Shown one piece after another: positions 55,130 through 62,781 of a stretch of DNA of 64,000 bases. Every line of letters starts with the position of its first letter. Within the stretch, counting starts at the first letter, position 1. The DNA lies in assembly GCA_021555105.2 (NCBI GenBank), contig CP134604.1, positions 2,108,001-2,172,000 of the forward strand, given 5' to 3'. The translations under genes and the position numbers were made by a program. This DNA is from Thalassospiraceae bacterium LMO-JJ14 (lineage in GTDB: Bacteria > Pseudomonadota > Alphaproteobacteria > Rhodospirillales > Casp-alpha2). The notes beneath the pieces are model-generated. The model made no database searches. It saw nothing but the letters and a program-made list of their open reading frames with translations, and was not told where the DNA came from.

Positions 55130-56002
55130 ATGGCTGATATTATCGAATTCGATCCGAACCCCGACGAGATCCTCAACGACGCGCCCGCCGTCGTCAGTTC
55201 GTTCGTCGTCGACCTGGAAGGGTTCGAAGGGCCGATCGACGTTCTGTTGCAGCTGGCGCGCGACCAGAAGGTCGATCTGGTGCATATCTCGATCCTCGAA
55301 CTTGCCGATCAGTACCTCGGCTTCGTCGCCGAGGCGCGCCGTCACAATCTGGAACTCGCCGCCGATTATCTGGTGATGGCAGCGTGGCTGGCGTTCCTGA
55401 AATCGCGCCTGTTGCTGCCCGATCTTTCCAGCGAGGAAGAACCGACCGGCGAGGAAATGGCCGCCGCCCTGCAATACCAGCTGCGCCGTCTGCAGGCGAT
55501 GCAGAACGCCGGGCAGGGGCTGATGCAGCGCCCCCGGCTCGGCCAGGACTTCCTCGGCCGCGGCGACCCGGAACGCTTCAAGCCGCGCGAGGTCGAAATT
55601 CTCGACGCGACGCTGTACGACCTGTTGAAAGCCTACGCCGAACAGCATACGCGCAAGAACGCGCACGCACCGATGCATATCGAGGCGTTCGAGATCTACA
55701 CCGTCGAGGATGCGCTGGGCCGGCTGCGCCGCCTTGTCGGCATGACACCCGACTGGCAGGACCTGTGGACGTTTCTGCCCGACGGTCTCAAGGGGCACCT
55801 GCTGACCCGCTCGGCGGTGGCATCGACGTTCGCCGCCAGCCTTGAAATGGCCAAGGAAGGCAAGGTTGCGATTCGCCAGACGGCGACGTTCGGGCCGATC
55901 TTTCTGCAGGGCAGGCGCGATGCGCCGATTGAGGAAGCCGCGCCTACGGTGACGGAAAACAAACCCAACGAGAGCCAATCCACGTCGGAGCCGGAAGAAT
56001 AG
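55130..56002 (+). CDS. scpA: Segregation and condensation protein A
   Basis: The 290-residue kleisin-like protein shows the ScpA pattern FVVDLEGFEGPIDVLLQLARDQKVDLVHISILELADQYL and AADYLVMAAWLAFLKSRLLLP, with a C-terminal winged-helix region. It bridges Smc heads in the condensin complex with ScpB. The C-terminal tail (about 25 residues) is acidic. The scpB ATG follows its stop directly. Confidence 0.94.
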   Translation: MADIIEFDPNPDEILNDAPAVVSSFVVDLEGFEGPIDVLLQLARDQKVDLVHISILELADQYLGFVAEARRHNLELAADYLVMAAWLAFLKSRLLLPDLSSEEEPTGEEMAAALQYQLRRLQAMQNAGQGLMQRPRLGQDFLGRGDPERFKPREVEILDATLYDLLKAYAEQHTRKNAHAPMHIEAFEIYTVEDALGRLRRLVGMTPDWQDLWTFLPDGLKGHLLTRSAVASTFAASLEMAKEGKVAIRQTATFGPIFLQGRRDAPIEEAAPTVTENKPNESQSTSEPEE

Positions 56003-56920
56003 ATGGAACGCCCAATGGCCGAACAACATGCAAACGATGACGCCCTGAACGAAGCAGCGGAGCAGGAAGAGGCACTTGGCGAAACCGCCGAAGCCGTGCC
56101 TGCCGCCAACGAGGACGAAGCCGACCCGGAAACGGTGCCTGAAGCGGATGCCGATGCCGCGGACGCCGATGAAGCTGCCGATGATGCGACGCCGCTGGCC
56201 GAGGACGGTGCGGAAAATCCCGTCGATCCCGAAACCTGGGACCGATATCTTCGGATTACCGAGGCCCTATTGTTTGCTTCCGCCGAGCCGCTGACCGAGC
56301 GCATGCTGGCCAATCGGCTGCCCGAAGATGCCGACGTCAAGGGGCTCTTGAAGGCGCTGCGCAACCTGTACGAAGGCCGCGGCGTGCATCTGATGCGTGC
56401 CGGGGCGTCATGGGCGTTCCGCACCGCGCCGGACCTGACCGATTATCTGAACAAGGAAGTCGAGGTCGCGCGCAAGCTCAGCCGTGCCGCCATCGAAACG
56501 CTCGCCATCATCGCCTATCACCAGCCGGTGACGCGTGCCGAGATCGAGGAAATTCGCGGCGTCAGTATCTCCAAGGGCACCATCGACGTTCTGATGGAAG
56601 AAGAATGGATCAAGCCGCGCGGCCGCCGCCAGACACCGGGCCGGCCATTGCAGTGGGGCACCACCGACGGCTTCCTGGATCACTTCGGGCTGGAAACGCT
56701 GCGCGACCTGCCGGGCGTCGACGAAATGAAGGCGGCCGGGCTTCTCGATGCCTCGCCGGCGATCAACGCCTATCGCGCCACCGCCGATCTGTTCAACGAA
56801 GCCGAGAGTGCCGAGGAAGAGACCGACGGGGACGGGGAAGACGCTTTGCCCGCCGATGCGCTCAGCGAGCCCCGCGACGAACCGGAAGAGCCGCTCGATC
56901 CCGACGGTGGGGATTTTTAG
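56003..56920 (+). CDS. scpB: Segregation and condensation protein B
   Basis: The 305-residue protein has two winged-helix domains (about 80-235) with ITEALLFASAEPLTERMLANRLP, LSRAAIETLAIIAYHQPVTRAEIEEIRGVS and GRRQTPGRPLQWGTTDGFLDHFG. It binds ScpA in the Smc complex. Unusually long acidic Ala/Glu/Asp stretches flank the core: about 75 residues at the N-terminus and about 45 at the C-terminus. GGAAG six bases before ATG 56003 supports this start. In relatives tatA follows; here a 5.4-kb module intervenes. Confidence 0.92.
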   Translation: MERPMAEQHANDDALNEAAEQEEALGETAEAVPAANEDEADPETVPEADADAADADEAADDATPLAEDGAENPVDPETWDRYLRITEALLFASAEPLTERMLANRLPEDADVKGLLKALRNLYEGRGVHLMRAGASWAFRTAPDLTDYLNKEVEVARKLSRAAIETLAIIAYHQPVTRAEIEEIRGVSISKGTIDVLMEEEWIKPRGRRQTPGRPLQWGTTDGFLDHFGLETLRDLPGVDEMKAAGLLDASPAINAYRATADLFNEAESAEEETDGDGEDALPADALSEPRDEPEEPLDPDGGDF

Positions 56921-56962
56921 GACGTCTTGAGGAGGGGGGCAGCTTTTAGCTGTGCCTGAAAA

Positions 56963-59242
56963 CTAGGCCCTGTCGATCTGCACGATCTTCCCGGCCGTGA
57001 CGGTGTTTTCCGGCGGAAATACAATTGAAATGCGTGTGCCGACCCTGATCTTGCTCTCGATATGCAGGGTTCCGCCGAGCAGCACGACTTGCGATTTTAC
57101 CAGATGCAAGCCGAGCCCGCTGCCGTGATAGCTGCGCCGCATCGAACTTTCGAGCTGGTGGAAAGGCTCCATTACACGCTCGATCTGATCGGTGGGAATG
57201 CCGATGCCGTTGTCCTCGACGACGACTTCCATGCCGCCCTCGCGCGTCAAATTGACGGACAGGCTGACCTTGCCGTTTTCCGGTGTGAACTTGATGGCAT
57301 TTGAAAGCAGGTTGAGGACGATCTGCTTGACGATCCGGGCGTCGGTCCAAAGCGTTTCAATCCGTTCGTCGACATTCGTCGTGATGTCGAGCAGGCTGGC
57401 GCCGGGATAACCGCCCGCGATGCGCATGCATTCATCGACAATTTCGTTGAAGTCGACGGCCGATGCATGGATTTCGGTCTTGCCGGCGGCAAGCCGGGAA
57501 ACTTCCAGCAAGTCATTGATGATGGATAGAAGATGCGAGCCGCTGGTAAAGATATCATCGGCGTAGGCTTTGTATTTCATCGAGCCGACCGGGCCGAAGA
57601 TTTCCGATTTAATGGTTTCGGAAAATCCCAAAATTGCGTTCAGGGGGGTGCGCAATTCATGCGACATATTGGCGATAAATTCGCTTTTTGCCCGGTTCGC
57701 CTCGATCGCCTGTTCAGCGGCCCGGTTCAGAACATCTTCCGTCTGCTTGTAAACGGAAATATCGGAAATCGCATAGATCGTGAAATCCCGGTTCGTCGTC
57801 CGCCTTTCAAAGGGGGCGGATTCGGGGGTTATCGAAACGTTGGAAATCGCAATTTCGACCGGAAGTGAGACATCGCCGGAAACTTTCAGCGACGTATAAA
57901 TTTTCGAATGGTGCGGCGTCGGTTCGTCGAACGACACGTCATCATCGTCCGGCAGGATGACCTTGGCCACATCGCGATCGATGATTTCATCCCGCGACAC
58001 GTTCAGCATTTCCGCCGCCGCCTTGTTGACGAAACGGATGATCCCGGCATGGTCGGCAACGACAATGCCGGTAAAGCTGTTGTCGGCAATGGCCTGGTTG
58101 AGTGCACGGCGTTCGCGAATTTCAGCGGACCGCTTGAATACGAGAAGTGCCTGCATGTCCAGTTGCTTGGTCAGACCGTAGACGAAACAGTATGCGGTGG
58201 TCACCAGCGCCGAACCGGCAGGGATGTCGACGGGGACGTATGTCTGAAGAATCATTGCCAGCGTGACCAGCAGTGTTGACGTGACGATGAAGGCAATGGA
58301 GCCGCGCACATGCGGCAAACGCACGAACATGCCGCTGAGGAGAATGCCGATCAGCAGCGCGGCGCCAAGTACGACCAGGGTATCCGCCTGCATGATCGTC
58401 CGGCCCAAAAGGATGGACTCCGCCGACATCGCCTGCAGTTCGGGGCCGCTCAGTGCGCCGTAAACGGGAACCGCGATTTCATCGCCGAGCTCCAGCGCCG
58501 TGGCGCCGATGATCACATACTTGCCTTTCAGCAGGTCGGCATTGAATTGACCGCTGAGCAGATCGACAAACGATACCCGGGGAATTGATTCCGGGCGAAT
58601 GCTGTAATCCACATAAAACGATTCCGTACCTTCCGTCGTACGTCCGAGCAATTCGGTGGCGAAAGCGGGAACGAAGCTTTCATGCCATTTGTGTAGGCGG
58701 TCGTATTTTCGGACCAGGCCATCGGACGCCGGCGTCACATTCACCGAACCCAGAAGCGCCTTTTCTGCAAGATCGTGCATCGGCGTGGTTGTCGTCACCT
58801 CGCCACCGCGGGTCGAGGACCATTGCTTGAAAACGGGTAGCACGATCCGTGCCTGCGCGTTGCTGACGGCTTCGATCAGATCGTTATCCGCATTGCCCCG
58901 AGAGGGTGAACTGAAATCGATATCGAGGCCGATGCGCGAAACACCGGCTTTTGAAAGTTTATTGATGGCTTCTGCATGGAGCGATCGTGACCACGGCCAT
59001 TCGCCGAGTTGCTGCAGGCTTTTTGAATCGATCTGGACAATGACGACCTTGCCGGATGCCTCGCGCGGGAACAGCAGGTATCTGAGATCGGCGAGTGCAC
59101 GGTCAATGCCAGGGACAACCCCCAAGGCATATAATGCCAACAGCAGTCCGATCATTCCGGCAATATGCAGCCGGTTGGTCACGAGGCTGCGAAACGTTCC
59201 GCGCGTCACGGGGCGATGCAAAACGTTTCCCGATTTTCTCAT
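56963..59242 (-). CDS. CHASE2-domain sensor histidine kinase
   Basis: The 759-residue protein has an N-terminal membrane helix (about 28-46) and a periplasmic CHASE2 domain (about 50-290, ending GALSGPELQAMSAESIL). Three membrane helices (about 295-365) and a PAS domain (about 380-500) follow. HisKA carries His528 (ANMSHELRTPLNAILGFSE). An HATPase has EVVVEDNGIGIP and GSGLGLHLVKSQV. It senses an extracellular signal. It starts three bases after the FecR-protein stop, so it is in that operon; no response regulator is adjacent. Confidence 0.92.
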   Translation of the reverse strand: MRKSGNVLHRPVTRGTFRSLVTNRLHIAGMIGLLLALYALGVVPGIDRALADLRYLLFPREASGKVVIVQIDSKSLQQLGEWPWSRSLHAEAINKLSKAGVSRIGLDIDFSSPSRGNADNDLIEAVSNAQARIVLPVFKQWSSTRGGEVTTTTPMHDLAEKALLGSVNVTPASDGLVRKYDRLHKWHESFVPAFATELLGRTTEGTESFYVDYSIRPESIPRVSFVDLLSGQFNADLLKGKYVIIGATALELGDEIAVPVYGALSGPELQAMSAESILLGRTIMQADTLVVLGAALLIGILLSGMFVRLPHVRGSIAFIVTSTLLVTLAMILQTYVPVDIPAGSALVTTAYCFVYGLTKQLDMQALLVFKRSAEIRERRALNQAIADNSFTGIVVADHAGIIRFVNKAAAEMLNVSRDEIIDRDVAKVILPDDDDVSFDEPTPHHSKIYTSLKVSGDVSLPVEIAISNVSITPESAPFERRTTNRDFTIYAISDISVYKQTEDVLNRAAEQAIEANRAKSEFIANMSHELRTPLNAILGFSETIKSEIFGPVGSMKYKAYADDIFTSGSHLLSIINDLLEVSRLAAGKTEIHASAVDFNEIVDECMRIAGGYPGASLLDITTNVDERIETLWTDARIVKQIVLNLLSNAIKFTPENGKVSLSVNLTREGGMEVVVEDNGIGIPTDQIERVMEPFHQLESSMRRSYHGSGLGLHLVKSQVVLLGGTLHIESKIRVGTRISIVFPPENTVTAGKIVQIDRA

Positions 59243-59245
59243 GAC

Positions 59246-60403
59246 CTAGCTGTTGCCATTGCCATTGCCGTTACCGTTACCGCCGGGATTGCCGTTGCCA
59301 CCGGGATTGCCATTGCCGTTGCCACCGGGATTGCCGTTACCGTTGCCGCCGGGATTGCCGTTACCGTTGCCGCCGGGATTGCCGTTGCCATTGCCACCGG
59401 GATTGCCATTACCACCGGGATTGCCGTTGCCGTTGCCACCGGCATTACCGCCGGCATTGCCGTTGCCGTTACCGCCGGCATTGCTCTGCGCCGTGATGAA
59501 TTTTGACAAGCTGGGACCGCGTGCATTGACGCTGTTGCCTTTGTCGCCGGGGGCTTTGAATTTATTTCCTTTCGCGTTTTGCGATTGGCCCGGGCCATTC
59601 AGGGAGAGCAGCCCCTTCGTATTCGCGGCAACGTTTCCGATACCGGCATCGATGGAGTTCCTGATTTTCAGGCCGGCTTTGCCCCGGTTGCCGCTCGCTT
59701 TGCCGTTCGCTTTACCGTTGTCATTCGCGTTGGCTGCGGTTTTTTTCTCTTTTTTACCGTCATCCGCGCCGGAATTGTTGCCTTCTTTTTGCGAATTCCC
59801 CTTGCCGTCGCCACGGTCGATGTTCAGTCCGCCGCCGCCCGTCGCCGCGACACGAGCCGTCTGTCCGACGGCGACCAGTCCGGTCTGCCCGGTCGCCAGT
59901 GATGCAACCTGAACCAGACCTTCCGTCACGTGCAGGGCGCTGCCGTCCGGGGTGACGCTAACCGAAAAAACGGTTCCCTTGATAACCGCCGCCAGATAAG
60001 GCGTGCGGACCTGGAAGTTTCTGGCGCCCTCGCTGGAATCGATGTTGAACAACAGGGTGCCGAGAGTCTGCAGAATGCTGGGGGACGATGCCGTGGCGCT
60101 TTCGGCGCCGACGCGGAACGCGCTGTCGGGGGAAACGACGATGCTGTCGCCTTTTCTGGACAGCACAAGGCGGCTTTCACTTCCCGTCGATACGCTCATG
60201 CCTTCGGCCAGTTGAGCGCCCGTTGTTGCCGGCATTTCGCCGGCGTCCAGCGAGCGGATCTTGGCATCGCCGACCACGGATGTGATGATCCATGCGGTGC
60301 CCGGCGCATAGACGCCGGGTGACTGTGCCTCAAGGTCGCCTGCGGCAAAAATCATTCCGACAAAAAGAAGCAGAAAATGAATGCGCTTCGGGAATCCGGG
60401 CAT
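59246..60403 (-). CDS. FecR-domain protein with Gly/Asn repeat tail
   Basis: The 385-residue precursor has a signal peptide (MPGFPKRIHFLLLFVGMIFA, cleavage near LEA-QS) and a FecR-type beta-domain (about 50-165, including ESRLVLSRKGDSIVVSP and RTPYLAAVIKGTVFSVSV). A Lys/Asn-rich linker and a C-terminal tail of GGNGNGNP repeats of some 75 residues follow. No membrane anchor and no sigma-factor partner exist. The start at 60403 has AAGG nine bases upstream; a second ATG at 60439 lacks one. It precedes the CHASE2 kinase gene and is divergent from the TpsB-like gene. Confidence 0.85.
   Translation of the reverse strand: MPGFPKRIHFLLLFVGMIFAAGDLEAQSPGVYAPGTAWIITSVVGDAKIRSLDAGEMPATTGAQLAEGMSVSTGSESRLVLSRKGDSIVVSPDSAFRVGAESATASSPSILQTLGTLLFNIDSSEGARNFQVRTPYLAAVIKGTVFSVSVTPDGSALHVTEGLVQVASLATGQTGLVAVGQTARVAATGGGGLNIDRGDGKGNSQKEGNNSGADDGKKEKKTAANANDNGKANGKASGNRGKAGLKIRNSIDAGIGNVAANTKGLLSLNGPGQSQNAKGNKFKAPGDKGNSVNARGPSLSKFITAQSNAGGNGNGNAGGNAGGNGNGNPGGNGNPGGNGNGNPGGNGNGNPGGNGNGNPGGNGNGNPGGNGNPGGNGNGNGNGNS
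59257..59486 (-). repeat. Tandem repeat encoding GGNGNGNP units
   Basis: Imperfect 24-base units (coding strand GGCGGCAACGGTAACGGCAA plus TCCC-type codons) and shorter 15-base units run through the 3' end of the FecR-domain gene. Pieces differ at third codon positions. Length changes by slippage are likely, but the sequence alone cannot show them. Confidence 0.9.
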
Positions 60404-60435
60404 GCAGTGGTGCCTTAGATGCTGGTTAATCATAA

Positions 60436-60561
60436 TCATGTGTATTCGTGCATGATGAATAAGGTTACATTCACTTAACGTAAAGTGTTGTTGGGTCCAA
60501 AACGGAACCGTATATTCGTCGCAAATAAGGACAGTCCAACAATCAATTCGTTAACGAATTG
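60436..60561. promoter_or_regulatory. Palindrome-rich divergent control region between the FecR and TpsB-like genes
   Basis: The AT-rich 226-base gap has CAATTCGTTAACGAATTG at 60544-60561, a perfect 18-base palindrome, and CACTTAACGTAAAGTG at 60472-60487 with two mismatches. TCATG/CATGA is repeated at 60436-60455. They probably bind one or more regulators of both divergent units. No exact promoter could be fixed. Confidence 0.6.
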
Positions 60562-60629
60562 TATTGTAATGAAATTTTTGAGTGCGTACTACAGAATTAA
60601 GGTTTTCCCAGCACATTTGGAACGATTAA

Positions 60630-62330
60630 TTGTGGAAATTATTTAGGTACACTAAAGGTTTATTTGTCTCTGTTGCGGTCTTGTCCGCCGTTTTGCCGTG
60701 CCTGGTCCTGGCCCAGACGACATCCGATCCGGCCCGTGTCGAAGAGCGGATCGACCAACGCAATGCCGCTCAGCCGCATATAAAAGATGAACTGAAACAA
60801 CTGCAGCCGGCCACGGATACCGATGGTCCGGACGCACAGCCGTCCGAGCGTTTCGTGCTCGCCGCCGTGACCTTTTCCGGGAACACCGTTTTTACTGCAG
60901 CCGCTTTTACCGACATTTACACACCGCTGCTGGCGCGCCAAATCGGCATCGAAGACGTCAGGAAAGTCGCCACCGACGTCACGGCGTTTTACCGGGAAAA
61001 AGGATACTTTCTGTCCCGTGCCGTTGTTGAATCCCAGGGCGTTGAATACGGTGTGCTGAATATCCGCATCGTTGAAGGCAAGATCACCAACGTCAGTTTC
61101 GATGCCGAAACAGCCGAGCAGGCTGACCTGTTGCGGCCCTATGGCGAAAAGATCGCCGATGCCGCAATGCCGGCAAACGTCAATACCGTGGAACGCTATC
61201 TGCTTTTGATGAACGACCTTCCGGGCATCAAGGCACAGGCCAAGGTAAACAAGGTCGACTATGAAAAAGGAGTTTACCGGCTCGATGTTGCGGTCAGCAA
61301 AAAGCCGGTGAATTATTCGTTCAATGTCGACAACCGGGGCACGCGCTCGGTCGGCCGCGATCAGGCCTATGTCAGTGCCACGGCAAACGGCTGGATGAGC
61401 GGGCGGGAAAGCACGCGTCTCGGCATCTTCACGATACCCTCGTCACCGAAAGAACTGGCCTATGTCGAGCTTCAGCAGCAATGGGCGCTCGGCACGGAAG
61501 GGACGGCCGTCAGTCTCGGCGGTTCGTATTCCAAGATCGATGCCGGGGCCGATGAAATCGACAACGACCTTCACAGCAATTCCTGGCGCGCCAGTGTGAC
61601 CGTGTCACACCCGGTGATCCGCGGCCGTGCCAAGAACCTTAATGTATACGGTGTGCTCAATACTTCCCGGCAAAAGCAGCACGATTTCGGCGTCTTCGAT
61701 TACGAGGACCGGCTGCAGGTGCTGCGCGGCGCCGCGGAAATCTATTATGAAGACGACATGCAGGGCGCCAATTACGCCAACATCTGGCTCAGCCGCGGTC
61801 TTGGCCTGAACGATGTCCCGGGGGATGCTCAGCGCTCCAGAAGCGGCGGGCGGCCGGTCTTTACCAAGCTCTATGCCCGCACAGAACGCCGCCAGCTGTT
61901 TACCGACAACTGGGCGCTCAAGGTCTCGGTTGCGGGTCAGGTGGCGGACCAGCGGCTGTTGTCGAACGAGGAGTTCTCTCTCGGCGGTTATCTGTTCGGC
62001 CGCGGATATGACGGTGGCGAGATTTCAGGGACACACGGCGCCGCCGGTTCGATCGAACTGCAATACGGTGACGATCTGGAAGGCCGTTGGCTGTCGTCGT
62101 ATCAGTTTTACGGGTTCTATGACGGCGGCGTGGTATGGGAAACGGCCGAGAACAGTTACGCCAGTGAGCATGAATCCCTGACGTCGGCAGGGATCGGCGT
62201 GCGCAGCGGTATCGGTGAAAATATGTCGAGCGGCATCGAGCTTGCCATGCCGCTGACCCGTCCGGCCGAGGAAGTGGGCGGAGACGGCAAAAAGCCGCGT
62301 CTGTTCTTTTACCTCAACGCGAATTTCTAA
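60630..62330 (+). CDS. TpsB/FhaC/ShlB-family outer-membrane transporter
   Basis: The 566-residue precursor has a signal peptide ending LVLAQ (about residue 29). A POTRA_2-type domain spans about 70-150 (FVLAAVTFSGNTVFTAAAF, FLSRAVVESQG, LNIRIVEGKITNV), and a beta-barrel runs from about 220. The Omp85 loop-6 motif appears as GRGYDGGEISGTHG, and the protein ends in a beta-strand with terminal Phe. Such proteins export TpsA exoproteins; none is encoded nearby. The start is TTG, with GGAAC upstream. tatA follows after 184 bases. Confidence 0.92.
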   Translation: MWKLFRYTKGLFVSVAVLSAVLPCLVLAQTTSDPARVEERIDQRNAAQPHIKDELKQLQPATDTDGPDAQPSERFVLAAVTFSGNTVFTAAAFTDIYTPLLARQIGIEDVRKVATDVTAFYREKGYFLSRAVVESQGVEYGVLNIRIVEGKITNVSFDAETAEQADLLRPYGEKIADAAMPANVNTVERYLLLMNDLPGIKAQAKVNKVDYEKGVYRLDVAVSKKPVNYSFNVDNRGTRSVGRDQAYVSATANGWMSGRESTRLGIFTIPSSPKELAYVELQQQWALGTEGTAVSLGGSYSKIDAGADEIDNDLHSNSWRASVTVSHPVIRGRAKNLNVYGVLNTSRQKQHDFGVFDYEDRLQVLRGAAEIYYEDDMQGANYANIWLSRGLGLNDVPGDAQRSRSGGRPVFTKLYARTERRQLFTDNWALKVSVAGQVADQRLLSNEEFSLGGYLFGRGYDGGEISGTHGAAGSIELQYGDDLEGRWLSSYQFYGFYDGGVVWETAENSYASEHESLTSAGIGVRSGIGENMSSGIELAMPLTRPAEEVGGDGKKPRLFFYLNANF

Positions 62331-62514
62331 GCCCTGAAGAATAGCCTCAAAAATCCTTGCAATCTCCGGGGTGAGCCGCAAATCTAGCGGCACTGGGAGA
62401 GTGCGGCGCTGAAAGGCGCCGTTGTCGCGTTTCAAATGCGCGCTGTTCTAACGAACCGCTCTTGTTGGAAATTGAAATTCGACGAACACGCGACAAATAG
62501 TGGGAAGAAAATAA

Positions 62515-62781
62515 ATGGGTGCGTTCAGTATTTGGCATTGGCTTATCGTCCTGGCCGTCGTCCTTGTCCTGTTTGGCGGCGGGGGCAAGATTTCCCGTCT
62601 CATGGGCGATTTCGGCAAAGGCCTGAAATCCTTCAAGAAGGGCATGAAAGACGGCGACGAAGCGTCAGGCGATGATGCCGGCGATGATGCCGGCAAGACC
62701 GAGAAAAAGGCGATCGATCAGGACGCCAAGGAAAGCGTCTCGGCGAGCGAGTCCGAAAAGGACAAGGCTTCCGGTGGCTGA
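62515..62781 (+). CDS. tatA: Twin-arginine translocase subunit TatA
   Basis: The 88-residue protein has the TatA start [46 protein letters not shown], with one membrane helix, the FGGG hinge and an amphipathic helix. An acidic/Lys-rich soluble tail follows. TatA oligomers form the Tat pore for folded proteins. GGGAAGAAAATAA precedes the ATG. The FecR/TpsB module immediately upstream separates it from scpB. Confidence 0.96.

Follow-up and report, generated by a model that had tools for sequence, protein, structure and literature searches.

A two-partner-secretion-type pore that has exchanged its exoprotein for a FecR-domain protein beside a CHASE2 sensor kinase in Alphaproteobacteria

The 64,000-nucleotide stretch of DNA analysed here, referred to as the window, covers positions 2,108,001 to 2,172,000 of contig CP134604.1 from Thalassospiraceae bacterium LMO-JJ14, a member of the Alphaproteobacteria whose 3.89 Mb genome is a single contig. 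Between scpB and tatA it holds three genes, encoding an outer-membrane pore of the TpsB (FhaC/ShlB) type, a FecR-domain protein and a CHASE2 sensor histidine kinase (Table 1). These genes form a real, conserved unit, here called the module, which has been inserted into the scpB-tatA junction and whose pore exchanged a TpsA exoprotein for a FecR partner in one ancient swap. In our reading, which we hold with about even confidence, the module would be a relay whose three parts link the outer membrane to the cytoplasm, with the FecR protein as client or plug of the TpsB pore and ligand of the CHASE2 domain.

The initial annotation, made from the letters of the window, had described a minus-strand pair of FecR-domain protein and CHASE2 kinase with a divergent FhaC/ShlB-type protein, and gene calls and Pfam agree with it. 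The FecR gene ends 3 bases before the start of the kinase gene on the same strand, and its place directly upstream of the CHASE2 gene is kept in relatives. In a survey of the bacterium's own family the module TpsB is present in 9 of 48 genomes and, where the contig is long enough, the FecR and CHASE2 genes are found upstream of it on the opposite strand, at sites other than scpB-tatA. In a sample of the class, a related TpsB occurs in 87 of 387 genomes; flanks were retrieved for about 60 TpsB matches and weaker matches were excluded, so that the module counts from this sample are lower bounds. The full divergent module is present in at least 14 of these genomes, with one further copy that can be followed up to the end of its contig (L181) and another that has the three genes in a different order (L182). 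The carriers, among them Tistlia consotensis and Marinicaulis flavus, span at least 12 other families of the class, as judged by family codes, and the divergent arrangement that the initial annotation had proposed to look for is therefore a recurrent one. At none of 26 loci is the module interrupted by an additional open reading frame, and among the 99 proteins flanking these loci no family, be it a fourth gene or a response regulator, recurs more than three times; sigma factor and TonB receptor families are absent from the 25 commonest families of these neighbours, and a receiver family is absent from the recurrent ones. Within the window, a Pfam scan finds neither an extracytoplasmic function sigma factor nor a TonB-dependent receptor beside the module, and the insert and the flanking scp and tat genes hold no response regulator, as the initial annotation had remarked. 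That the three genes are chance neighbours is rejected by the recurrence of the module in the class and by the TpsB tree described below. One copy (L180, genome G301) has its TpsB and CHASE2 frames each split, possibly through decay or sequencing error.

The pore itself is a well-formed member of its family. Both its POTRA_2 (PF08479) and its ShlB barrel (PF03865) matches lie above the curated cut-offs, and in a profile comparison with the PDB it matches FhaC over its full length. The AlphaFold model (predicted local distance difference test score, pLDDT, 80.7) has an H1 helix at residues 34-47, POTRA-type elements at 79-224 and, by our own count, 16 strands from residue 227 onwards, and its best fold matches are CdiB (6wim) and FhaC (4ql0). 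Judged from sequence and model, the protein retains all TpsB hallmarks, including a loop-L6 motif kept throughout the module TpsBs, which argues against decay and is not proof of export. A residue signature specific to module TpsBs was sought, and only positions 88 and 102 consistently differ from TpsA-partnered TpsBs, so there is no clear signature in the pore.

What sets the module TpsBs apart is their partner. Among the large neighbours of related TpsBs, 56 of 62 carry the TPS domain and are true TpsAs. In a tree of 139 TpsBs, every module TpsB falls into one clade (30 tips, SH-aLRT 90), and the module and TpsA-partnered states are explained by a single change. The remaining five tips of the clade are four whose flanks reach a contig edge, one of which (L023) includes the beginning of a FecR gene, and L182 with its reordered genes. 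The TPS domain (PF05860) was undetectable in 15 of 21 module genomes, including the window genome and all tested carriers of its family, in a search that was positive in 4 of 4 genomes with known TpsA neighbours, and a hidden TpsA in the window genome is rejected on this ground. The other six module genomes do have TpsAs, and the clear TpsA match there adjoins a second TpsB. The LMO-JJ14 genome has a single ShlB-type gene and two CHASE2 genes, and a cognate TpsA with a TPS domain is found neither beside the pore nor elsewhere in the genome. The initial annotation had named a matching TpsA elsewhere, or a scattering of the three genes in relatives, as observations that would speak against its reading; no such TpsA was found, and the genes stay together.

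In the FecR protein that stands in TpsA's stead, a signal peptide precedes the FecR domain, and a long tail rich in Gly and Asn follows it. Its AlphaFold model has a pLDDT of 75.5, with the FecR part mostly at 80-96, and resembles the signalling domain of PupR (6ovk_R, Z 16.0 over 128 residues) and that of another putative anti-sigma factor (4m0n, Z 15.5). PF04773 is the sole Pfam match at E 0.1, with DUF4880 and STN unmatched; the signal peptide and the tail occupy the places of the N-terminal anti-sigma part (DUF4880) and the C-terminal STN, respectively. A FecR profile run against PDB sequences returned nothing at E 1, and a TPS-like beta-helix is disfavoured, such structures being absent among the matches listed. 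Past the FecR domain, module FecRs have in common a motif of about 30 residues. When groups were left out in turn, 19 of 24 held-out module FecRs outscored the best of 33 control FecRs on this motif, and three module proteins outside the alignment scored 12.8-33.4 bits, where the best control reached 8.5; a single control (L251) rises clearly above about 4 bits. The tails also differ, with a median Gly+Asn content of 37% in module FecRs against 17% in other FecRs (Mann-Whitney p 1e-6, relatedness not corrected for). We propose that motif and tail serve the pore, and a physical link between FecR protein and TpsB is likely because of this TpsB-associated motif and tail, together with the change of partner from TpsA to FecR. 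Several contigs that carry the module stop at or close to the Gly/Asn-repeat tail, and over the tail in the window (59249-59572) the antisense frame is open and gives rise to long false open reading frames, as it does at L188.

The third protein has an N-terminal membrane segment followed by CHASE2, further membrane segments, PAS, HisKA and HATPase_c. Among 24 module CHASE2 proteins, 22 carry HisKA and HATPase domains and two carry an EAL domain instead; the output can thus be exchanged on a constant front end. The protein distances of TpsB, FecR and CHASE2 correlate with r 0.86-0.91, above the kinase core (0.78-0.81), which speaks for the three proteins working together. The DivJ/PdhS-like kinase core was not used as a pointer to DivK, since unrelated kinases score equally. 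Of 40 other CHASE2 loci that were sampled, about half contain a FecR domain no more than a few kb away, and a TpsB occurs at one. Since the FecR-CHASE2 pair is common without TpsB, it is the older or wider theme, with the pore as an added third part.

At its present site the module is an insertion, as the initial annotation had supposed. In blastn comparisons with congener junctions (L038-L044), homology is lost at the scpB stop (about 56920) and comes back at 62347, 17 bp past the TpsB stop, so that the 5.4 kb insert consists of the three genes and little else. The flanking genes are scpA-scpB (55130-56920, with scpB at 56003-56920) and tatA-tatB-tatC (from 62515, with tatA at 62515-62781); scpB and tatA are contiguous in 7 of 7 congeners examined and in most of the family, and relatives have scpA-scpB-tatA-tatB-tatC together. 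In two congeners the module adjoins imuA-imuB-dnaE2 and their own scpB-tatA junction is empty; an ImuA gene was not found in the window genome. A mobile element at the site is rejected, since neither a transposase nor repeats bordering the insert were found.

In the literature searched, most subscription journals lying outside its scope, no paper joins CHASE2 with ShlB or two-partner secretion, or a FecR domain with two-partner secretion. The closest precedent comes from Sinorhizobium meliloti where, according to published work, NsrA is an outer-membrane barrel receptor needed for signal perception (PMC7529298) and CHASE2 cyclases need it to answer a proteinaceous surface signal (PMC7529298; PMC13001267). 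In a pSymB record, Pfam assigns to the gene directly upstream of cyaK a FecR domain (66-160), tetratricopeptide (TPR) repeats and, by a weak match, a barrel at the C-terminus; CyaK has a CHASE2 and a cyclase domain. NsrA-CyaK (and CyaD1/D2) resemble the module in having a FecR domain linked to an outer-membrane beta-barrel, in the position of its gene directly upstream of that for the CHASE2 protein and in a signal that runs from the surface to the inner membrane. In contrast to the module, with its separate TpsB pore and histidine kinase, a single protein chain there carries FecR, TPR and barrel, and an adenylate cyclase provides the output. The module looks like a split version of this relay, with barrel, FecR and CHASE2 on three proteins and TpsB as the barrel.

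The Burkholderia BiofilmReg operon encodes a response regulator, a LysM-FecR protein, a CHASE2-PAS histidine kinase and a DUF4136 protein (PMC5192318). As in the module, the gene of the FecR protein directly precedes that of a CHASE2-PAS-HisKA-HATPase kinase; the operon differs in having a response regulator gene and LysM and no reported outer-membrane pore (PMC5192318), whereas the module lacks the former two and has a divergent TpsB. In Campylobacterota, a horizontally spread cluster encodes a CHASE2 adenylate cyclase, a phosphodiesterase, a FecR-domain outer membrane protein and a TPR protein, again bringing FecR and CHASE2 together, but with cyclase output and no TpsB reported (PMC9239204). 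Classical two-partner secretion (FhaC-FHA, CdiB-CdiA) has the H1 helix, POTRA domains, 16-stranded barrel and L6 motif in common with the module, in which, unlike there, a TPS-domain TpsA is missing and the partner is a FecR protein with a sensor kinase. FecA-FecR-FecI and PupB-PupR offer the FecR fold, as in PupR, and an outer-membrane barrel as possible signal source; the module has in contrast no sigma factor or TonB receptor, and its FecR would be a soluble exported protein. A further analogy is RcsF-BamA-IgaA-RcsC, in which a barrel of the Omp85 superfamily and an envelope protein whose disordered part possibly threads the pore report to an inner-membrane kinase system. It is an analogy only, RcsF being a lipoprotein and unrelated in sequence.

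In the relay that we propose, a TpsB-type barrel would be the outer-membrane part and the FecR protein its periplasmic client, with the folded FecR domain remaining in the periplasm while the motif, together with the disordered Gly/Asn tail, docks onto the POTRA domains and the pore or is threaded into them. The state of the pore, whether occupied, open or met by a surface ligand, would be relayed by the FecR domain to CHASE2 in the inner membrane, which would govern how active the histidine kinase joined to it is, an EAL domain acting on cyclic di-GMP taking the kinase's place in two relatives; the response regulator would be encoded elsewhere. What speaks for this relay is the recurrence of the three genes in one divergent order, the single TpsB clade with its exchange of TpsA, the correlated protein distances, the motif and tail of the module FecRs, the NsrA and BiofilmReg precedents and the frequent FecR-CHASE2 neighbours in the class. 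The physical contacts, the export of FecR, the direction of signal flow and the nature of the ligand are all elements that we infer. More tentatively, and with clearly less confidence, one may go a step further and suppose that, after this TpsB lineage gave up TpsA once, its FecR proteins became translocation substrate or plug and their export is read directly by the CHASE2 kinase, which would make the module a type V-like system that secretes, signals and monitors itself.

Several observations could also be accommodated by the main rival, in which the FecR protein would be a fully exported substrate that replaces TpsA, its FecR domain serving as POTRA ligand, its tail being secreted or displayed and the CHASE2 kinase regulating or monitoring export. 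FecR occupies the gene place of TpsA in genomes that mostly lack a detectable one (15 of 21), all 25 module TpsBs retain the L6 pore motif, the Gly/Asn tail looks disordered, and FecR domains also occur near the N-terminus of RTX/cadherin open reading frames, which look exported. We nevertheless consider this unlikely: among the matches listed the FecR fold matches PupR and not the TPS beta-helix, and the FecR-CHASE2 pairs without TpsB imply a periplasmic role for FecR. For the same two reasons a relay partner is better supported than an exported cargo, and of the sensory-secretory reading in the initial annotation the sensory role is upheld by the NsrA-CyaK and BiofilmReg precedents, while FecR as cargo or plug of the channel is not established. 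Those same free-standing pairs, and the divergent intergenic region that the genes share, would suit an arrangement in which FecR and CHASE2 kinase are a self-contained periplasmic sensor that controls TpsB expression only, with TpsB exporting an unlinked exoprotein without recognisable TPS domain. To this we give equally little credence, since the FecR protein carries a TpsB-associated motif and tail, the module TpsBs form one clade, which would be unexpected if regulation alone were shared, and no recurrent fourth gene was found among the 99 neighbours. A decayed two-partner secretion locus, in which TpsA was lost and the other genes are neutral leftovers, would account for the missing TpsA and for the broken frames of L180. 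It is largely refuted by the conservation of the module, whose frames are intact and whose motifs are kept in at least 12 families, and by one ancient swap rather than many losses, and we regard it as highly improbable.

Some points weigh against the relay that we favour. The motif is short, 5 of the 24 held-out FecRs fail to beat the best control, one held-out FecR has no motif found in place and neither has the FecR of L182; the Gly/Asn tail could be a mere linker. The distance correlations were computed without a housekeeping-gene baseline and may partly mirror shared ancestry, and the TpsB tree was a quick one. As far as Pfam shows, the NsrA barrel is outside the TpsB family, so that NsrA is a precedent by role and not by barrel homology.

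Table 1. Features of the three-gene module, in window positions (aa, amino acids; a point marks features without a strand)
Feature	Position	Strand	Evidence
Inserted segment with the three genes, missing from relatives' scpB-tatA junction	56921-62346	.	Homology breakpoints; scpB/tatA adjacency
CHASE2 sensor histidine kinase (CHASE2, membrane segments, PAS, HisKA, HATPase_c), 759 aa	56963-59242	-	Pfam PF05226 7.5e-40, PF00989, PF00512, PF02518; hydropathy
Kinase core HisKA + HATPase_c, aa 518-745; output region, EAL in 2/24 relatives	57008-57691	-	Pfam
CHASE2 extracytoplasmic domain, aa 33-299	58346-59146	-	Pfam PF05226
FecR-domain protein, 397 aa, cleavable-type signal peptide, lipobox cysteine not seen	59246-60439	-	Pfam PF04773 2.9e-7; sequence
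Gly/Asn-rich repetitive tail of FecR protein, GGNGNGNP repeats	59249-59572	-	Sequence; module vs control tails
Additional conserved motif, ~30 aa, [KR]I..[ILV]G....[LI]D....T.GLV; candidate TpsB-contact element	59591-59680	-	Module FecR alignment
FecR domain, aa 83-176, PupR-like fold	59912-60193	-	Pfam; AlphaFold model vs 6ovk_R Z 16.0, 4m0n Z 15.5
Divergent FecR/TpsB intergenic region, presumed site of both promoters (predicted)	60440-60629	.	Sequence, congener alignment
TpsB/FhaC-type outer-membrane pore (POTRA/ShlB), 566 aa, TTG start	60630-62330	+	PF08479 3.9e-17, PF03865 1.8e-17; FhaC profile match; model; fold matches
Loop-L6 motif GRGY of TpsB, aa 457-460	61998-62009	+	[GL]R[GA][YF] in 25/25 module TpsBs

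Further combinations of these protein families were seen outside the module. At two loci (L210, L225) CHASE2 genes lie directly beside a TpsB-TpsA pair, a second link between CHASE2 and two-partner secretion, and in three members of one family (L190, L194, L196) a gene for a short FecR protein ending in AGCGC is followed on one strand by that for a protein of about 250 aa of no assigned family and by TpsB, with no CHASE2 or TpsA gene nearby. In other alphaproteobacteria (L237, L246), RTX/cadherin-type proteins with a FecR domain adjoin CHASE2 genes, an arrangement suggestive of a link between adhesins and CHASE2 signalling through FecR. In the LMO-JJ14 genome itself, outside the window, four very large open reading frames have a FecR domain close to their N-terminus; they lie at 2217519 (L030, 9372 aa, beginning about 45 kb right of the window end) and 1999980 (L031, 4307 aa) and, with RTX repeats, at 414765 (L032, 1141 aa) and 1437270 (L033, 902 aa).

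To our knowledge, little has been established about what CHASE2 domains sense, and there is no consensus on what FecR domains do where sigma factors are not involved. With a well-understood pore among its three conserved parts, the module is a testable case for CHASE2 signals, and the contents of the pore are probably what CHASE2 sees. If this is true, a TpsB pore would be able to switch from an exoprotein to a signalling-protein partner, which bears on client recognition in two-partner secretion. That the output can be either kinase or EAL on otherwise unchanged parts suggests that these serve as a general front end for sensing at the surface, into which different outputs can be plugged, and the pore's exchange of TpsA for FecR suggests a system that reports events at the cell surface to the cell interior.

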